25,648 nucleotides of DNA from a virus, in IMG/VR virus record IMGVR_UViG_3300045789_000617, positions 1 to 25,648 of that record. The stretch is one strand, 5' to 3'. Positions 147 to 8,314 of this stretch are shown here, in pieces. The notes below the pieces were generated by a model. That model searched no databases and was not told the origin of the DNA. It saw nothing but the letters and a program-made list of their open reading frames with translations. The position numbers were made by a program, and so were the translations under genes. Positions within the stretch are counted from its first letter, which is position 1; each line of letters starts with the position of its first letter.

Positions 147-1412
147 TTAGAAGCCTGCTTTGATTTCTTGGGGCGTAGATGGGGCGTTTTCAGTATTTTC
201 TTTACTGGAAAAGCCAAATATCTTATTCACCATATCCGCCATCGGCGGTGCATCTTCCGGTATCCATTTCGCATAATGATCATCTAGCATCTTCGTGCTT
301 GTGTGCCCCATTTGCTTGGCTATCCAATCTTTAGATATTACACCAGTAGAAAGCAGCTGAGACGCAAACGTGTGTCTTGCATGATTAGGCCCTCTATATC
401 TTACTCCTGCCTTGATTAAATGATTACTCCAAAATCGTTCGCGAACCGTTCCATCACTCGCGTGGGGCTGGCCTGTATTTGAATTCCTCCAGATCGGCCT
501 CCATCGTTCTTTTCTGATTGTTCTATTGTCTGCTTGTGTTACATCTAGCACGAGCGGAGGGAGGGCGAAGGTGTTTTTCTTCTGATTTATGAGAGCATCA
601 ATAGCAGGCTTGAGTAATTCAATTTCACGAATAGAGCCTTTGGTTTTTGGTATTTTGTAATACCCCTTCACATTCCCCCTTTTTACTTTGATAACTCCAC
701 GATCCAAGTCAACATCATCCCAGCCAAGCGCAATTAACTCTGACACACGAACACCTGTCCAGAATGCAAACTGCATCATTAAGATTTCTTGGATTCGATG
801 CGTCTTGGTGCTTAGTATTTTTGCGATCTCTTTTTTCGTGAAGGGATCAGGCTCTTGCTTGCTTACTGTACGGTTGCCAATGTATTCCGTTGGGTTCTCT
901 GTAATAACCCGGTCGGCTTTAGCGTCCGAAAAAACTCCTCTCATGATAATCATGATCTCATTAAGAGTTTTATTTTTCAGGCTGCTTAGTTCGAGTGATA
1001 TCCATCGCTCTATATCGCTTTTTGTAATCTCATGGATAAAGCGGTCTTCAAAACCGGGCTTGATGTGTTTATTTGCTTTTGATTTGTAATTGTCATAAGT
1101 GCTCTTGGCTGTGGTTTCTTTTTTTACAGAGAGCCAATGGTCCACTCCTTCCGTTACTGTTCTTTTAATAGCGGAAGGGCCAGAGAATAATGCGGCTTTT
1201 TTTGAGTCAGGAAAGTGAGAGGCGTAATCAAACACGCCTGTCGCTATTTCGTGCAGTATTGATGAGCGCTTATTAGATGCAAATTTGATATTTGCTTTGG
1301 TTGGTTTCATCCCTTTCAGGGATTCGCGGCACCGCTGGCCGCGATAGGTGAAGACTAGCCTTAACGTATCCCCTCTTAACTCAATGCCCGTTGGCAACTT
1401 GCTTGCAGTCAT
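147..1412 (-). CDS. int: phage tyrosine integrase
   Basis: Site-specific tyrosine recombinase that integrates and excises the prophage at the adjacent tRNA-Ser. The N-terminal ~70 residues look like the arm-type DNA-binding domain of the DUF3596 family (TGIELRGDTLRL...). A core-binding SAM-like domain follows at about 90-180, then the catalytic domain. Numbered from an upstream ATG at 1427, the catalytic residues are R227 (TGVRVSEL), R351 (ARHTFASQLL), H375 (MGHTS) and nucleophile Y385 (DDHYAKW). The usual His three residues before the second Arg is Asn348. I prefer the ATG at 1412, preceded by GAGTGGA; the 1427 start has no ribosome-binding site. The gene overlaps the excisionase end by 32 bp, so the two are probably translated from one leftward message. 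Confidence 0.95.
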   Translation of the reverse strand: MTASKLPTGIELRGDTLRLVFTYRGQRCRESLKGMKPTKANIKFASNKRSSILHEIATGVFDYASHFPDSKKAALFSGPSAIKRTVTEGVDHWLSVKKETTAKSTYDNYKSKANKHIKPGFEDRFIHEITKSDIERWISLELSSLKNKTLNEIMIIMRGVFSDAKADRVITENPTEYIGNRTVSKQEPDPFTKKEIAKILSTKTHRIQEILMMQFAFWTGVRVSELIALGWDDVDLDRGVIKVKRGNVKGYYKIPKTKGSIREIELLKPAIDALINQKKNTFALPPLVLDVTQADNRTIRKERWRPIWRNSNTGQPHASDGTVRERFWSNHLIKAGVRYRGPNHARHTFASQLLSTGVISKDWIAKQMGHTSTKMLDDHYAKWIPEDAPPMADMVNKIFGFSSKENTENAPSTPQEIKAGF

Positions 1413-1608
1413 TTTCAATCCACTCATCTATTGCTCGCCAATTGTAAAAAACATTTTTATCGGGCCCGGTTTGCCAGTGAACCCCTTCAATCCATATCCC
1501 GCTTAGGCGCTTTTTCTTTAGCGCATCGCTAGACCATCCACTTATCTCAGCATACTTAGAGGTTTTCACCCACTTAGGCAGCAGTGTTGCTATTGTTTCG
1601 TTGCTCAT
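1381..1608 (-). CDS. xis: excisionase (DUF1233-like)
   Basis: A 75-residue basic protein immediately upstream of, and overlapping, the integrase. The pattern of a short N-terminal helix, a winged-helix-like stretch (SDALKKKRLSGIWIEGVHW) and then a conserved Trp/Asp segment matches the lambdoid DUF1233/YdaQ-type excisionases, in which 'WIEGVHW' is a recognisable motif. Such proteins bind and bend attachment-site DNA to steer the integrase toward excision. The start is supported by AAAGGACGAGATAATG, one of the recurrent AGGACG ribosome-binding sites of this prophage. Family assignment is from recalled motifs, so the exact family name is less sure than the role. Confidence 0.82.
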   Translation of the reverse strand: MSNETIATLLPKWVKTSKYAEISGWSSDALKKKRLSGIWIEGVHWQTGPDKNVFYNWRAIDEWIENDCKQVANGH

Positions 1609-1710
1609 TATCTCGTCCTTTATTTAAGCGGGTGTCCAGTCCGCCGATCATTAGGGGGATGAAACCCCTTAATAGATATTCGTTTCTTTCTAGTTAGTGC
1701 TAACCGATTT
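1609..1710. other. short intergenic region upstream of xis
   Basis: About 100 bp between the excisionase start and the first attC-like site. It holds a small inverted repeat (TTAGGGGGATGAAACCCCTTAA) with no T-run and a near-palindrome GTTAGTGCTAAC at 1694-1705. No gene or convincing promoter is seen. Confidence 0.4.
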
Positions 1711-1770
1711 CATAACACTTCGTTCAACGGTACATCTCGTAACCTCAATGACGTTGAACTTCCTGTTATG
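1711..1770. repeat. attC-like site A
   Basis: Imperfect inverted repeat with outer boxes CATAAC (1711) and GTTATG (ending 1770). Unpaired spacers ACTTC and TTCCT follow, then a perfect inner arm GTTCAACG (1722-1729) / CGTTGAAC (1752-1759) around a ~22-nt centre. This box-spacer-arm plan is that of an integron attC site (R''-L''-L'-R'). The TAA stop of the adjacent small gene lies inside the right-hand box. Confidence 0.6.
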
Positions 1771-1954
1771 GCGCACTTACCTTCGGTCTATGATCAGTGC
1801 CGCCAAGCTCTCGCCACATGATTTGTGCAGCGCCGCGCCCTTGATGTCCTGCCAGCACTGAGCGTTCGATGCACATCTGCTTTTGCACAGCGTCAATTAG
1901 CTGTCGTCTAGTGATGGTTAGTTCCTCATCCATCAAAGGGTCTGTACTTCTCAT
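1766..1954 (-). CDS. small hypothetical protein, cassette-like gene 1
   Basis: Unrecognised 62-residue protein, rich in charged residues, with an amphipathic helix around ITRRQLIDAVQKQMCIE. It has no signal peptide or membrane segment. The ATG at 1954 follows GGGAGGTAGC, a strong ribosome-binding site; an in-frame GTG 51 bp upstream lacks one and lies within an attC-like repeat. The TAA stop is supplied by the GTTAT box of attC-like site A, and the gene begins just after site B, so one gene is framed by two repeats as in an integron cassette. Confidence 0.6.
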   Translation of the reverse strand: MRSTDPLMDEELTITRRQLIDAVQKQMCIERSVLAGHQGRGAAQIMWRELGGTDHRPKVSAP

Positions 1955-1971
1955 GCTACCTCCCGCGCAAA

Positions 1972-2029
1972 ATAACAATGCGCTTAATTCTGAATCTTGT
2001 TTCACTCGCTCAAATTAGTGAGTGGTTAT
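1972..2029. repeat. attC-like site B
   Basis: Outer boxes ATAAC (1972-1976) and GTTAT (2025-2029), spacers AATGCG and TGAGTG, then arms CTTAATTCTGA versus the complement of TCAAATTAG. The arms pair if one T and one C are left extrahelical in the left arm. The CCCGCG immediately left of the box is shared with sites D and E. It lies exactly between two small leftward genes. Confidence 0.55.
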
Positions 2030-2265
2030 ACGCCAACTTCTTCATTGATAATGTCAGCAACCGAGGCGTAGAAAGAGTTAGTCCTAACCTGCTCATTCGC
2101 CCACTCCTCCACTTCTTCACGATCTAACGCAAACCCGCCGGATTTTTTTATATTCACAAACGTGTACATGTCATCTGGGGTTTTGAATCGAACCTTCCAT
2201 TTCAAAGACGATTCGCGCATAACAACAAGCTGTTTCCGATCGTCATTACATTCGCTTTGGCTCAT
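2026..2265 (-). CDS. small hypothetical protein, cassette-like gene 2
   Basis: Unrecognised 79-residue acidic protein with a predicted beta-rich middle (LKWKVRFKTPDDMYTFVNI) and a helical C-terminus. No signal or membrane segment is seen. The start is supported by GGAGGAATGAAATG. The TAA stop falls within the GTTAT box of attC-like site B. Upstream it abuts the end of the next gene with only 25 bp between, where just one repeat half-box remains. Confidence 0.65.
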   Translation of the reverse strand: MSQSECNDDRKQLVVMRESSLKWKVRFKTPDDMYTFVNIKKSGGFALDREEVEEWANEQVRTNSFYASVADIINEEVGV

Positions 2266-2282
2266 TTCATTCCTCCGGTAAA

Positions 2283-2297
2283 GCTTTGGGTTATGTG
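2283..2297. repeat. isolated attC-like half-box
   Basis: The sequence GCTTTGGGTTATGTG contains the same GGGTTATG box that ends sites C and D, and it again provides the TAA stop of the upstream gene. No partner ATAAC box or inner arm follows before the next ribosome-binding site. I read it as the remnant of a deleted site, which would have fused two cassettes. Confidence 0.35.
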
Positions 2298-2518
2298 TAG
2301 TTAATAGCTCGCTTCAGCTTAATAAGCGTACAAATTTCACCATCCGCTAAATGTAAGTTTTCTTCAATTGTTTCGCGTATAGCAGCTTCTAGTTTTTCAT
2401 TTTCTTCAAGTAACTCAATACATGCGTTTGCTGTAGCTGCTCTTTGAAATGCTCTTTGCATATCCATGTCTTTCATAGATGACATTTTAAAAACTTCCCA
2501 AACCCTTTTTATGTCCAT
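2291..2518 (-). CDS. small hypothetical protein, cassette-like gene 3
   Basis: A 75-residue, mostly helical protein. A Leu/Glu-rich helix (CIELLEENEKLEAAIRE) is followed by the motif LADGEICTLIKLKRAI, which resembles the C-terminus of small hypothetical proteins I recall from other phages; no function is known to me. The start at 2518 has GAGGATGTGATTTTATG. A second in-frame ATG at 2485 follows GGGAAG and is a fair alternative. The stop TAA lies in the GGGTTATG half-box. Confidence 0.65.
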   Translation of the reverse strand: MDIKRVWEVFKMSSMKDMDMQRAFQRAATANACIELLEENEKLEAAIRETIEENLHLADGEICTLIKLKRAINYT

Positions 2519-2544
2519 AAAATCACATCCTCAGCTAATAATCA

Positions 2545-2590
2545 CATAACAAAGTATTCCAGCGGATGCCCGCTGAATATCGGGGTTATG
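2545..2590. repeat. attC-like site C (clearest example)
   Basis: 46 bp: CATAAC, spacer AAAG, arm TATTCCAGCGG (2555-2565), 4-nt tip, arm CCGCTGAATA (2570-2579), spacer TCGGG, box GTTATG. Arms pair fully except for one extra C in the left arm. One extrahelical base per inner arm and unpaired spacers next to the outer boxes are hallmarks of attC sites, and a simple terminator would not have them. No T-run follows on either strand. Confidence 0.68.
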
Positions 2591-2741
2591 TTCCTTGCTT
2601 ATATTTTATTTCATCGCCGCAGCGATAAGGCCAACATCCTGAATCAAACCTACGCTTTTCCAAAAGCTCTTTAAGTAAAACTGGAGTCTCTTTGATTTCG
2701 CTAAGCGGAATCCTAACCCATCTTGATTTTCTTTTTTTCAT
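2586..2741 (-). CDS. small basic hypothetical protein, cassette-like gene 4
   Basis: A 51-residue gene with a strongly basic start (MKKRKSRWVRIPLSE), a central helix (PVLLKELLEKRRF), two cysteines (SGCWPYRCGD) and a basic tail. I do not recognise it. The start follows AAAGGATAGGTAG. Its last codons run into attC-like site C so that the TAA is the core of the repeat box. It is one gene between sites C and D. Confidence 0.6.
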   Translation of the reverse strand: MKKRKSRWVRIPLSEIKETPVLLKELLEKRRFDSGCWPYRCGDEIKYKQGT

Positions 2742-2772
2742 CTACCTATCCTTTATTTGCTAGCCCGCGAAA

Positions 2773-2828
2773 CATAACAAAGCAATCAAAAACGACTGCG
2801 TAAACTTGCGTTTTATCGCAAGGGTTAT
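2773..2828. repeat. attC-like site D
   Basis: Outer boxes CATAAC (2773) and GTTAT (to 2828). Arms AATCAAAAACG and CGTTTTATC pair apart from extra C and A bases in the left arm. The left flank CCCGCGAAA matches the flanks of sites B and E. It separates cassette-like genes 4 and 5. Confidence 0.52.
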
Positions 2829-2835
2829 TTGGCGG

Positions 2836-2943
2836 CTATCTATTGTGGCCGTTCACTTCTCCGCAATGAGGGCAAACAACTGTCCACGCTTTCATCTTCT
2901 TACCGCAGTGCACGCATTTTTCTTTCTTCTCTTTTTTACTCAT
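2836..2943 (-). CDS. 35-residue zinc-ribbon protein, cassette-like gene 5
   Basis: A very short gene with start ATG at 2943 preceded by CGGGAGATAGAAAGTG. After a Lys-rich leader (MSKKEKKEK) come two knuckles, CVHC and CPHC, spaced as in a rubredoxin/zinc-ribbon fold. Four cysteines in 35 residues make metal binding likely. It is probably a DNA-, RNA- or protein-binding mini-domain, but no partner can be named. It is the one gene in this array whose stop (TAG at 2836) lies 8 bp before the repeat box instead of inside it. Confidence 0.65.
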   Translation of the reverse strand: MSKKEKKEKCVHCGKKMKAWTVVCPHCGEVNGHNR

Positions 2944-2965
2944 CACTTTCTATCTCCCGCGCCAT

Positions 2966-3025
2966 ATAACAAGGCGCTTAATCTGTGACGCTCCCTGTGG
3001 GTCGCGCCGCTTAGCTTGGCGTTAT
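2966..3025. repeat. attC-like site E
   Basis: ATAACAAGGCGCTTAA on the left and GCTTAGCTTGGCGTTAT on the right, read on the plus strand. This is close to class 1 integron sites as I recall them (TAACAA...GTTCAAG / GGCTTAA...GCGTTAG). Inner arms GCTTAA/TTAGC pair with one extrahelical T. The centre is about 25 nt. The left flank CCCGCGCC is shared with sites B and D. Confidence 0.6.
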
Positions 3026-3243
3026 TTGGCGCTAACAAAGCGCACGTTTTTTGCCCACGAACTACCATCGATTGCCATGCTTGTAATAAAATAAAGATTC
3101 TTCTTTTTGTTAATCAAAATCTCTTCTTTGTCAGTTCCAGCATTTAGCACCTCTTTTGCTCGGTACTTCTGAGGCTTGCCTTTAAAATCACAGAGGACAG
3201 TATCACCAGTTTTAATCTGTCCAGGCTTTGTTAAATTTTCCAT
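3022..3243 (-). CDS. small hypothetical protein, cassette-like gene 6
   Basis: A 73-residue, beta-rich basic protein (IKTGDTVLCDFKG..., YRAKEVLNAG..., LYFITSMAIDGSSW, VRFVSAK). Alternating hydrophobic strands suggest a small SH3-like or OB-like barrel, but this is only a fold guess. No signal or membrane segment. The TAA stop is in the GTTAT box of attC-like site E. Ribosome binding is unclear: GAAGGG lies 13 bp upstream and AGAAGGA directly abuts the ATG. Confidence 0.65.
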   Translation of the reverse strand: MENLTKPGQIKTGDTVLCDFKGKPQKYRAKEVLNAGTDKEEILINKKKNLYFITSMAIDGSSWAKNVRFVSAK

Positions 3244-3595
3244 TCCTTCTCATTACCCTTCACGGTTATTGATAGCGTTTTATTCATTATCAAAAAGAGC
3301 CTGTATTTCGTTTTGCTCGCTAAAATTAAGAAATTTTCTTATTTCTCTTGTTTCTCATTTTTTGTACATTCTGTAACAAGAGAAAAAGAGAACGTTAGTT
3401 CTTTATCTAGGCCAAGGATGGCCGCTCTGCATCCCGCCCCTAACGGGGCGGATTTTCCTTCAACGTATCCTTGTTTCCTGTTTGTTTTGCGGCTCACTGC
3501 GCGCCAGTCCCAGTATTGAGGGTTCATTTTCTCGCCTTCCTAGTACGGGAAATACACCCCGAGGTGCATAACCCGTCTTTATCACAAGCTTCTAA
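3244..3595. other. gene-poor intergenic region with inverted repeats
   Basis: About 350 bp without a convincing gene, between the small-gene array and the DUF2303 gene. It holds an 11-bp perfect inverted repeat TTTCTCTTGTT (3342-3352) / AACAAGAGAAA (3375-3385), a GC-rich hairpin with T-run at 3434-3458, and a two-part hairpin at about 3543-3574 (ACGGG...CCCGT outside, CACC/GGTG inside). The last lies just downstream of the DUF2303 stop and may mark the end of that transcript. A 62-codon leftward frame here runs through the GC hairpin and is not accepted. Confidence 0.45.
3434..3458 (+). terminator. candidate rho-independent terminator
   Basis: Perfect 7-bp stem CCGCCCC-TAAC-GGGGCGG followed on the plus strand by ATTTTCC. 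The T-run is on the plus side although all flanking genes read leftward. It would therefore end a short plus-strand (antisense or regulatory) RNA, or be a fortuitous hairpin. Confidence 0.4.
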
Positions 3596-4381
3596 TTACA
3601 TTGAGCCATCAAAGAAGGTGGCCTTATCGTTCAAGCCTTGCTCAATTTCATTTTTAACTTCTTTAAAAGCATCTTCGGCCATGCGCTCAGGGCGAAGTAG
3701 GTCATACCACATAGTTAGAACGCCATCGGTTATGCGGTAGCGAAGTCGGGCTGTTACTTCGTACTTAGCACCACCTTCATAAACAGGGATACCTAATTTA
3801 AACTCTTGAGGAATATCCATTTGACCTGCCGAGCCTGTTGTCTGCTCGTTGTAGGTAAACTGTACATCGCCATTAGCTAAGTTTTGCCCAGATTTAAAGT
3901 CGATTTTTTTCTTGGCCTGTAGCTCTTTGGAAATGGTCAGCATGTCGGCACCAGAAGGGGCGACAATATCCAGAAGGTTAGTTTCTATAAAGAGAGCAAA
4001 GTCAGTCTGACTCATTGTTTTGCCATCAAGTCGGAGCCAAGCGCTCCAGCGGGAATCAACTGGGCAGCTATAGCTAACAACATGCTTACCCCAAGCCGGT
4101 CCATTCACTGGATCGTGATAATCTAGTACAGCCGTGAATTTCTCATTTTTTAGATCGGCAAACACCGCTGTATAGTCAGTCATAAAGTCAGCAACATACT
4201 TAACAAATGACCGCGCTGTAGATACTTTTACGGATGCCTCTATACGTCGAGGGCCTTCTTTAAAGTCTTGTAGGTCGCGCACAGTATGATCTTGGGGCAG
4301 TACAACAAAATCACCGTCCACTGATTGAGGTTTACCAAAACCACTAAATACACCCATAATTCGATCAAAAAGTTCTTTCAT
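3596..4381 (-). CDS. DUF2303 family protein (YfdQ-like)
   Basis: A 261-residue protein matching, from recalled motifs, the DUF2303/YfdQ family found in early regions of many prophages. Features are an N-terminal HTVRDLQDF segment, VSTARSFVKYV, the block SRWSAWLRLDGKTMSQTDFA, and a beta-rich C-terminal half (VQFTYNEQTT, YEVTARLRYRI). It is predicted cytoplasmic with no membrane segment. Function is unknown; its position beside recombination genes suggests a DNA-metabolism or anti-host role. The start is preceded by ACAGGACGAAATAGAA. The two unknown genes upstream use near-identical AGGACGAAA leaders, and this trio probably forms a unit. Confidence 0.82.
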   Translation of the reverse strand: MKELFDRIMGVFSGFGKPQSVDGDFVVLPQDHTVRDLQDFKEGPRRIEASVKVSTARSFVKYVADFMTDYTAVFADLKNEKFTAVLDYHDPVNGPAWGKHVVSYSCPVDSRWSAWLRLDGKTMSQTDFALFIETNLLDIVAPSGADMLTISKELQAKKKIDFKSGQNLANGDVQFTYNEQTTGSAGQMDIPQEFKLGIPVYEGGAKYEVTARLRYRITDGVLTMWYDLLRPERMAEDAFKEVKNEIEQGLNDKATFFDGSM

Positions 4382-4427
4382 TTCTATTTCGTCCTGTATT
4401 TTGAATTAAATTGCCTAACTAGATGAC

Positions 4428-4784
4428 TTAATTGCCAACCTGCTTGAGCTCTGCTTTTTCTTCACTCATGTCCACTGAGCGAAGCGGTAAATCTTGCTGA
4501 TTAGGATCATCTGTAACTAGGTTGCCGTCCGGCGTTTCAAACATAATTGTTCGACCTCTCGGCATTTGTGGAAGTTTTGACTTCACTTCTTCTTGGATAT
4601 CAAAAATGCCATCCATTCCGGTTTCAGGTTTGATCTTCAGTACAACCGTAACGGTTGCTACTTTGCCTGTTTCACGCGCCGCCTGGATTGCTTCAGCAAG
4701 CTCAGCGCTTGCATCCTCTGCCGCGCCAGTGCGAAGGCTGTTAAGAGTGTGTACAAACAAATCGGGTCTATGTTTAGTATTCAT
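4428..4784 (-). CDS. conserved-looking hypothetical phage protein, partner of DUF2303
   Basis: A 118-residue acidic protein with a helical N-terminal half (SAELAEAIQAARETGKVATV) leading into a strand-rich middle (TVVLKIKPE) and a polar C-terminal tail (DLPLRSVDMSEEKAEL). It is unrecognised by name; small proteins of this plan seem to accompany DUF2303 genes in other phages, but I cannot confirm that here. The start is supported by ACAGGACGAAACGATG. It lies 46 bp upstream of DUF2303 and 28 bp downstream of the next unknown, all leftward. Confidence 0.75.
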   Translation of the reverse strand: MNTKHRPDLFVHTLNSLRTGAAEDASAELAEAIQAARETGKVATVTVVLKIKPETGMDGIFDIQEEVKSKLPQMPRGRTIMFETPDGNLVTDDPNQQDLPLRSVDMSEEKAELKQVGN

Positions 4785-5861: not shown

Positions 5862-7568
5862 TTAAGCTGCTTTGCCTAGAGAGCTAATCGCATCGCTGTA
5901 ACCGCTCCAGTTATCAACACCGTGAGCCTGCAGAGCTTCTAACATGTCGCGAGCCTGCTTAAGCTCCATGTATTCGGTGTTGGTAATAGCAACCATTGCT
6001 TCCGCTGCTTTCCGGGTAGGGGCTGCAAAGCGAGGTGATGCAGTTTGTGCTTCTTGCTGGACTGGTTGTTGAATAAGTGTTGCAGGCTCTGCTTGCTGGG
6101 CTGGTTGGCTTTCGACTTTTGCCGCTAGTGCTGCTTTTTCCTGCTCTTTACGAATGCGAGCCTGCTCCTCTAAGCGGATCTTCTCGCGCTCTTGCTCCAG
6201 CTTGGCTTCGGCTTCGCGCTTGGCTTTGGCTGCTTCTTCAGCTTGAATACGCTGACGCTCTTGCTCTTGGCGCTGGCGTTCCTTCTCTTTATGAGCTGAG
6301 ATGCGAGAGTTAACTTTGTCTTTTAGGTGGTCTTCAGAAAGCATGACAAGTTCACAGCGGTCAGCAAAAAGGTGCTCGAAGCCTGCTGATAATTTATTGA
6401 GCAGAATTGCCTTCGCAGTAATCCCTTCAGCTTGCTGAGTCGCCATCGCTTTGTTTTTTGCTAACTCATCATCTGCTGCAGACTGAACACTGGTAATGGT
6501 TTTTTTGCCTTTGATTGCCGTAGCAAAATCAGCAGTGATCGTTGGGAGCATGAAGCCGTACTGGCCTAGCTGGCGGTTGAGCTCAGCAATATGCTGATCC
6601 AAGGCGCGCTTTGCTGTCATGATGGTTTCAGAACGAAGTTGCTCTTTACGAGCCTTAACTAGCTTGTTGAGTTCAAGACGTTTTTTGCGCATTGACTCTT
6701 TAAGCTCATCGATAGTGTTAAACAACACGCTAATAGATTCAGTTTGAGCAAGTGCTTGCGCCTTAACTTGTTCCAGCTGCTTCTCGCCTTTATCGAAAAA
6801 CTTCACAGTCGCATCAGCATCAGCAAAATCTTGATCGGTGGTAAGGTCTGTTTTGACTGCTTCTATTCGAGCGGTAACAGCATCTTTAAAGGTTGTTAGG
6901 TTTGAGCTTTTAACTTCACCTGCAATATCTACGGTAAGAACTGGAAGCTCTTTCTGTGTTGCTGCTACTACTTCAACAGTAGCTTCTGCAGGAGTGTAGT
7001 TTCTAAGATCTTCAGCAAACTGGTTCCAGCCTGCTAACAGCTCTTCGCGGCGGCCTGGTATTGAGGTGTACCACATAGAAGCCATATTCTCTTTTGTGCC
7101 ATCAGAGCACATAAACAAGCATTGATCAGCGCCAGAAACTAACAGCTGTTGTTCTAACTGCCAGTAGTAATGCGCTTCCAGCTCTTCTGCTTGAACTGCT
7201 GCAAACAGCTTCTGATTTAAAAGCTTATGCTCCCAGCAAACATCTTCAAGCATGGTGATGCCATCAAATGAAGCGAGAAGGTTTAAGCTGATATCATCAT
7301 GCATCGCGGTAGCAGGAAATAACTCTTCACCAATAATTTCTTCTGCAAGCGGTCTTGCGAGCTCTTCAGCCTTATGGCCTTTGTTGAAGATTTTCTGCTG
7401 GTGCTCAGATACTTCAGCAACCAATCCGGTAGCTTTCATATGCAGAAGTTCAGAACGCTTCTGGTATTTAGATGCGCCCATCATTGCAGGTGCTTCAGAA
7501 GCTGTGAAACGTGCAGCTCTGGCTTCATGCCATGCTTGAGAGCCTTGAACTAAATCTAAAATTCTCAT
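5862..7568 (-). CDS. YqaJ-type recombination exonuclease with long coiled-coil tail
   Basis: 568 residues. The first ~200 match YqaJ/lambda-exonuclease-like nucleases: QGSQAWHEAR, TASEAPAMMG, acidic residues E68/E69, D102 in SFDGI, and E113-x-K115 in WEHK, the PD-(D/E)XK signature. This would resect double-strand ends for Bet-mediated annealing. The remaining ~370 residues are very rich in Lys, Glu, Gln and Ala. They contain a long charged helix at about 415-500 (many QEQER / EAEAKLEQ-type repeats), a Pro/Gln linker and a small C-terminal helix. That tail is much longer than in the usual family member. Its start overlaps the Bet stop as TAATG, so the two are translationally coupled. Confidence 0.9.
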   Translation of the reverse strand: MRILDLVQGSQAWHEARAARFTASEAPAMMGASKYQKRSELLHMKATGLVAEVSEHQQKIFNKGHKAEELARPLAEEIIGEELFPATAMHDDISLNLLASFDGITMLEDVCWEHKLLNQKLFAAVQAEELEAHYYWQLEQQLLVSGADQCLFMCSDGTKENMASMWYTSIPGRREELLAGWNQFAEDLRNYTPAEATVEVVAATQKELPVLTVDIAGEVKSSNLTTFKDAVTARIEAVKTDLTTDQDFADADATVKFFDKGEKQLEQVKAQALAQTESISVLFNTIDELKESMRKKRLELNKLVKARKEQLRSETIMTAKRALDQHIAELNRQLGQYGFMLPTITADFATAIKGKKTITSVQSAADDELAKNKAMATQQAEGITAKAILLNKLSAGFEHLFADRCELVMLSEDHLKDKVNSRISAHKEKERQRQEQERQRIQAEEAAKAKREAEAKLEQEREKIRLEEQARIRKEQEKAALAAKVESQPAQQAEPATLIQQPVQQEAQTASPRFAAPTRKAAEAMVAITNTEYMELKQARDMLEALQAHGVDNWSGYSDAISSLGKAA

Positions 7569-8314
7569 TATTTAATCCCCATGATTTGTTGTTTTTGCTC
7601 ATCAGTCAGAAGGGCCTTGCTGCTGACCATTTGAATGATTTGGTCCGGTGTTTTTTTGCCTGCTTCAATAGCGTCTTTCCATTTAGGGAAGTTCTGATCA
7701 AAGCTGTCTACTGGGTAATACTCGAGAGCAGGGCGGCTTTCTTCTTGAGGAGTAATATTTTTCTCTGCAGCCACAGACTGCTTGATGCGTTCAGCTTCAT
7801 CCGGGTCAACTATTCCAGATAAGCCAAATGCATAACGAGCTGCTTGAATGGTGGCTTTATGTCGAAGCATGCGAGCTGGCCATTTTTTCCATGGCTCTGA
7901 AGTGCCAGCACACTCATTAAGGTACTCAGTCACCTCGGTATAGCGCTGACGGTCCTTTCTATAAATTCGACAAGTAATGGCTGAGAGCTCGCCGCCCTCT
8001 TGGATATCAATAAACTCCATACCATCAAAAGCAGGGTGCTGATTAATAATCTTCAACCAACCATCTATAGAGACGATCGGTTGAATTGCACCGCGATTAG
8101 CAAAGGCATAAATTTCTTTAGAAAGTGGGTTTAGCTGATACTCGTTAGCAATGACGAGAAAGGTTACAAACTCTTCATTGCTTACTTGCTGGCCATTCGA
8201 CTTGGCCTTCATGAGGGTATTCAGAACAATGCCCTGCATTTCCTTTTCATCAAGGCTTAATCGAGAAGCCATTGCTGCTATAGGTGTTTGCTGTGCTGTT
8301 ACTGGTGCGTTCAT
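7568..8314 (-). CDS. bet: phage recombinase Bet (RecT/Redbeta superfamily)
   Basis: A 248-residue single-strand annealing protein. The body has the Bet family pattern: LNTLMKAKSNGQQVSNEEFVTF region, NPLSKEIYAF, PIVSIDGWLKIINQHPAFDGMEF, YRKDRQRYTEVTEYLNEC and a Trp/Arg-rich block WKKWPARMLRHKATIQAARYAFGL. The C-terminal third is divergent, as is usual. It would coat ssDNA made by the coupled YqaJ nuclease and anneal it to homologous DNA. The leader AAGGACGGGAATATG belongs to the recurrent AGGACG group. The stop overlaps the nuclease start by one base. Confidence 0.94.
   Translation of the reverse strand: MNAPVTAQQTPIAAMASRLSLDEKEMQGIVLNTLMKAKSNGQQVSNEEFVTFLVIANEYQLNPLSKEIYAFANRGAIQPIVSIDGWLKIINQHPAFDGMEFIDIQEGGELSAITCRIYRKDRQRYTEVTEYLNECAGTSEPWKKWPARMLRHKATIQAARYAFGLSGIVDPDEAERIKQSVAAEKNITPQEESRPALEYYPVDSFDQNFPKWKDAIEAGKKTPDQIIQMVSSKALLTDEQKQQIMGIK

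Follow-up and report, generated by a model that had tools for sequence, protein, structure and literature searches.

An array of integron attC-type sites with inverted one-gene cassettes in a temperate phage, and apparent cassette exchange among related phages

Clusters of attC sites in phages were published in 2023, for example in the Pseudoalteromonas phage PH101/H101, as arrays of attC sites and small genes without an integrase (CALINs), and activity of the PH101 sites was demonstrated with IntI1 (Qi et al., PMC9892861). According to the same source, complete integrons with IntI and cassettes inside the prophage occur in the temperate phages Shewanella M16-3, whose IntI is 95% identical to that of S. 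oneidensis, and Vibrio anguillarum p16, whose cassettes are a subset of those in the integron of its host. Such attC clusters were known before the present work; whether phages use them had been open, and the accessible parts of Qi et al. do not take up gene orientation relative to attC, head sites, the trading of cassettes by near-identical phages or any IntI lineage specific to phages (PMC9892861). A further system of similar appearance is found in Cluster K mycobacteriophages, in which imperfect inverted repeats (ESAS) precede small genes of unknown function, with no recombination boundary at the repeats reported in the portion of that paper at hand (PMC3203893).

The DNA analysed here (the window) is an IMG/VR viral record of 25,648 nucleotides (25.6 kb) from a temperate phage adjoining a tRNA gene, and encodes int, xis, DUF2303 and a Bet-like gene. 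The latter (7568-8314) was read from the sequence without a family search, and its assignment is our assumption. The tyrosine integrase (147-1427, - strand; Pfam Arm-DNA-bind_2 and Phage_integrase) shares 98% identity with its counterpart in a prophage of Neptuniibacter sp. UBA6509; its identification as an integron integrase was ruled out by a TIGR02249 score of 24 bits against a cut-off of 265. The excisionase gene (xis, 1381-1608, - strand; Pfam DUF1233, phrog_539) is the left neighbour of six hairpin-like sites, which lie between xis and the early genes and alternate with small genes on the - strand. The sequence-only reading that had drawn attention to this region called the element a lambdoid prophage, a loose term for this temperate phage. 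A scan of the window against Rfam at gathering thresholds matched only tRNAs, and a tRNA gene was noted within the phage at 13501-13574. Related phages were not found using DUF2303 as the query, and nothing useful was obtained using the array as the query against E. coli genomes and known phages; further phages carrying these sites were supplied by pattern scans, in which most viral matches to the short pattern ATAACAANGCGCTTAAT look like chance.

To score the sites, a covariance model with canonical structure (R1) was built from 16 aligned chromosomal attC sites of arrays that adjoin an integron integrase in other genomes within this bacterial order, without any phage array of the present study, and was run over both strands of the window with no filters. 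A home-made stem scanner missed sites B-E, which have several bulges, and served only to gather chromosomal attC sites for training. On the + strand, R1 matched site B (1970-2031; 12.7 bits, E 0.25), F (2217-2296; 18.8 bits, E 0.0046), C (2544-2591; 29.2 bits, E 5.7e-6), D (2772-2830; 19.3 bits, E 0.0034) and E (2964-3027; 22.1 bits, E 5.4e-4). Sites C, E, D and F head the ranking and B is sixth, behind a 23-bp fragment that is the strongest match outside the array (13.2 bits); the matched sites are all on the + strand and lie inside 1.1 kb of the 25.6 kb. The leftmost site, A (1711-1770, + strand), is a symmetric attC-like hairpin without extrahelical bases (inverted repeat 79%; fold z -3.3/-2.4) and has no R1 match on either strand, unfiltered. 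The five inverted repeats A-E had been recognised from the letters alone, and each shows R boxes (ATAAC/GTTAT), unpaired spacers and the inner arms at the place given for it; all five are real, but the total is six, F having been missed. The attC covariance search proposed at that time as a check came out in favour of the claim. By the features that define an attC (R''/R', spacer, L''/L', extrahelical bases and model match), C, E, D and F qualify clearly and B weakly, and with six sites in 1.3 kb of a record without IntI the definition of a CALIN is fulfilled. As a control on a published array, R1 recovered three sites in the CALIN region of PH101 (E 2e-10 to 2e-7).

Free folding alone is weak evidence for the sites: C folds better than shuffles (z -4.3/-4.5), whereas B, D and E are mostly no better. 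In an alignment of 17 phage attC sites found using R1, 87% of cells pair and 13 pairs show double changes; the covariation score was reached by none of 500 shuffles, while the pair counts lean in favour of pairing because the alignment was fitted to the model. The arms of E are nearly identical to those of chromosomal attC sites in loci L058 and L067, with 23 bp in common with a chromosomal attC. D and the attC of cassette X of phages G404 and G406 (described below) are of one family, and B-type sites occur in several copies in G402, G404 and G406. Judged by sequence, the window repeats are integron attC sites; that an integron integrase recombines them through the folded bottom strand, as published for the PH101 sites (PMC9892861), is inferred.

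A canonical attC carries its extrahelical bases in the 5' arm of its top strand, a position also seen in the chromosomal training sites, and a cassette gene usually, if not by strict definition, reads toward its own attC. In the window the extrahelical bases of B-E are in the left arm (5' on the + strand), and in L058 the reading frame ahead of the E-like attC enters R'' in the usual way; from the position of these bases and the closeness of E to chromosomal attC, the top strand is inferred to be + and the genes, all on the - strand, to be inverted. The usual direction is not the one found here. The array comprises genes a (1766-1954, 62 aa; stop TAA inside R' of A; no family), b (2026-2265, 79 aa; stop in R' of B, start inside F; no relatives found), c (2291-2518, 75 aa; stop in R' of F), d (2586-2741, 51 aa; stop in R' of C) and e (2836-2943, 35 aa), a zinc-ribbon-like gene by a Pfam match under the cut-off (6.5e-5), and at its right end gene f (3022-3243, 73 aa), which stops in R' of E and has no attC rightward. 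The terminal TAA is supplied by the R' box of the next site in five of the six genes, and almost no relatives or families of the cassette proteins were found in family and relative searches. Alternation of tiny leftward genes with the sites had been noted earlier and is confirmed, the inversion relative to the attC top strand having been overlooked. Inverted units are the rule in phages (25/30) and the exception in chromosomal arrays (5/29; Fisher p 3.6e-7), counting the longest ORF between sites, with units that are not fully independent, some cassettes occurring more than once; of the five exceptions among phages, two are a small zinc-ribbon cassette whose conserved gene is actually inverted. 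Chromosomal integrons from this bacterial order and family are alike in attC structure and sequence, G/TT boundary (the slash marks the cut) and IntI-attI-attC geometry, but differ in that genes point to their own attC and units are mostly larger. The PH101 CALIN resembles the window in this respect, since its deposited annotation (L178-L180) places the genes opposite to attC, i.e. inverted.

Comparison of related phages located the limits of the units. G404 and G406 show 94-99% identity over long stretches, yet their arrays are different: cassette X belongs to one array in G404 but to the other in G406, between unrelated flanks, with a match running from G/TTAT through the GTTA of its own attC. 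A 76-aa cassette is common to prophage G355 and G406 with a GTTA boundary at each end and its own attC, and a MazG cassette, likewise GTTA-bounded with its own attC, is common to G355 and a lambda-type prophage of genome G356. In all three cases the moved unit consists of G/TTA, gene, own attC and GTTA, set between different neighbours, so that three gene-plus-attC units with G/TT boundaries are exact at both ends in related phages. A fourth, cassette e of the window (2824-2985), is 96% identical to G404 20798-20636; its left boundary is exact at GTTAT (G/TTATTTGG), after D in the window and after an A-type site in G404, whereas the inner half of its attC differs in G404, so that ordinary homologous recombination also acts; this unit is exact at one end only. 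Whole cassettes, cut at the crossover point, distinguish phages that are otherwise near-identical, and it therefore appears that early accessory genes are swapped by phages through integron recombination, the recombination itself being inferred from the compared sequences. The earlier proposals of a CALIN in the left arm of a prophage and of gain or loss of units at GTTAT in related phages are borne out by the one-strand model matches and by the GTTAT-bounded units; that phages carry integron cassettes is likewise supported, but had been put forward without regard to the phage CALINs already published in 2023 (PMC9892861).

The closest relative of the window, G001, has a backbone 93% identical and other content between 1724 and 3489; only half-sites are left in its array region, and the junction lies inside A. 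At about 31230 of G001 (L002) this region opens with CATAACACTACG/TTATGAG, which looks like the junction of a cassette inserted at the inner GTT of A; on this reading the crossover would fall at an L box, which would be unusual. The same left-arm region of the related prophages L002 and L010 holds what we take, from the sequence and without a family search, to be a Dcm-type DNA methyltransferase-like gene.

Homologues of A were found in six other phage or prophage genomes (G402, G403, G404, G405, G406 and G355), nearly always first in the array and followed by different content each time; one copy in G406 is internal. In G355 and G404 the flank left of A is shared (96%) and divergence sets in at the R' box of A. 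Homologues heading differing arrays are the pattern expected of a docking site, and A is likely to be one, in the attI position, although this is inferred and docking itself is not shown.

An integron integrase is present in a related phage. Two prophage regions of G356 each carry IntI beside the phage integrase; the two share 90% identity with one another and 41-45% with the chromosomal IntI of G356, identity to any IntI compared does not exceed about 50%, and in a tree they form a separate, deep-branching clade with the longest inner branch and no supported sister. M16-3 and p16 are alike in having IntI and cassettes within a prophage, but their IntI is close to the host type (PMC9892861), whereas that of the G356 phages is not and their cassettes are inverted. 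The chromosomal integron of G356 itself has genes in the normal orientation. Contig C269 of G356 (39 kb) looks like a complete phage genome, comprising replication genes, terminase, portal, head, tail, IntI, cassettes, int, xis, cassettes and repressor, IntI being situated between the tail module and int. A 43-bp attI-like repeat ending in G/TTAT is present in three copies in C269 and two in C120, beside IntI and right of xis, and in C269 also between the replication genes and terminase; each copy is followed by a different sequence, those of C269 heading three arrays of different inverted cassettes. The copy right of xis occupies the position held by A in the window. A sequence relationship between A and this repeat was considered and dropped, as no similarity was found. 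The intI and attI of a complete integron are absent from the window but present in C269; neither the phage IntI nor the attI core was found in other IMG/VR contigs. Identical 51-bp attC-like sites (L161, 11108-11158 and 14151-14201) lie on either side of int/xis in the IntI-bearing phage, giving the impression that these two genes form part of the cassette arrays. The second prophage with the same IntI (L102, C120) adjoins genes resembling a host fab operon and has a MazG cassette in common with G355.

These observations bear on whether the repeats might instead be translation-start leader elements like the Cluster K SAS/ESAS, shuffled by Bet and exonuclease, with a convergent likeness to attC. 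The likeness of ESAS to the window as imperfect inverted repeats ahead of small genes (PMC3203893, in part), the Bet-like protein presumably encoded here, the RBS motif GCGCGGGAG shared downstream of several sites and the swapped inner attC half of cassette e would all fit. Against this, a model of chromosomal attC matches the sites strand-specifically, E has 23 bp in common with a chromosomal attC, GTTA bounds units at both ends, a related phage has IntI with attI-like sites heading such arrays, and the sequences themselves differ from SAS/ESAS, the 13-bp SAS consensus not being enriched in the window (5 matches against 3.6 expected); we consider this explanation improbable. Passive capture of an ordinary bacterial CALIN from a host chromosome, now a fossil, would account for a record without IntI, for the mere remnants in G001 and for the closeness of E to chromosomal attC, but the genes are oriented opposite to those of chromosomal cassettes, the same head site recurs in many phages, and close relatives differ by exact cassettes, so the array is not frozen; this is very unlikely. 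Chance or terminator hairpins between small genes can practically be discounted, for although several sites are terminator-like (10 found against 3.2 expected), the shared arm sequences, the one-strand R1 matches and the recurrence in other phages speak against both.

We therefore have high confidence in a phage-borne CALIN of a special type, with recombination inferred and not shown, in which head site A beside xis is followed by cassettes of one small gene and one attC each, gained and lost through recombination at G/TT of R' as in integrons, with the integrase inferred to act in trans. With the attC top strand taken as + from chromosomal homology and extrahelical-base position, the genes lie opposite to it, and so start beside their own R'' and end in R' of the preceding site. 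Leftward phage transcription could read these inverted genes, from a promoter that is inferred; as regards a cassette promoter (Pc), which a complete integron also has, a simple consensus scan of 1400-4500 gave no leftward promoter-like site. IntI was not found in the window, G001 or G402-G406, records that may be fragments, nor in the Neptuniibacter genome G004, but is present in 53 of 116 host-family genomes, or roughly half, which makes action in trans on the window cassettes likely, though not shown; the enzyme would be a bacterial IntI or that of a co-resident phage, such as the IntI-bearing phage of G356. More broadly, and with somewhat better than even confidence, the temperate phages of these marine hosts may possess a native integron platform, having fixed attI/A head sites beside int/xis and elsewhere, inverted one-gene cassettes, a phage-specific IntI lineage and a phage-shared pool distinct from that of bacterial integrons. 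The consistent inversion, together with a phage-specific IntI and multiple attI-like sites in each genome, suggests that the system has been fitted to phage use, and phage mosaicism, often ascribed to random recombination, is linked here to a site-specific mechanism. The inverted platform, head sites, phage IntI lineage and exchange between phages appear to be new, no mention of inverted cassettes in phages, of head sites or of an IntI lineage of phages having been found in a literature search that did not cover most subscription papers or any preprints.

The sites also appear in bacterial CRISPR arrays. Type I-F-like arrays in L105 (G359 C1) and L104 (G004 C19) hold anti-attC spacers, and one G359 spacer matches the B-type sites of the window, G402, G404 and G406, in several of them with no more than one mismatch over most of its length, so that several phages, each with several copies of the site, could be covered by a single spacer. 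Further G359 spacers match the backbones of G404, G405 and G406 exactly.
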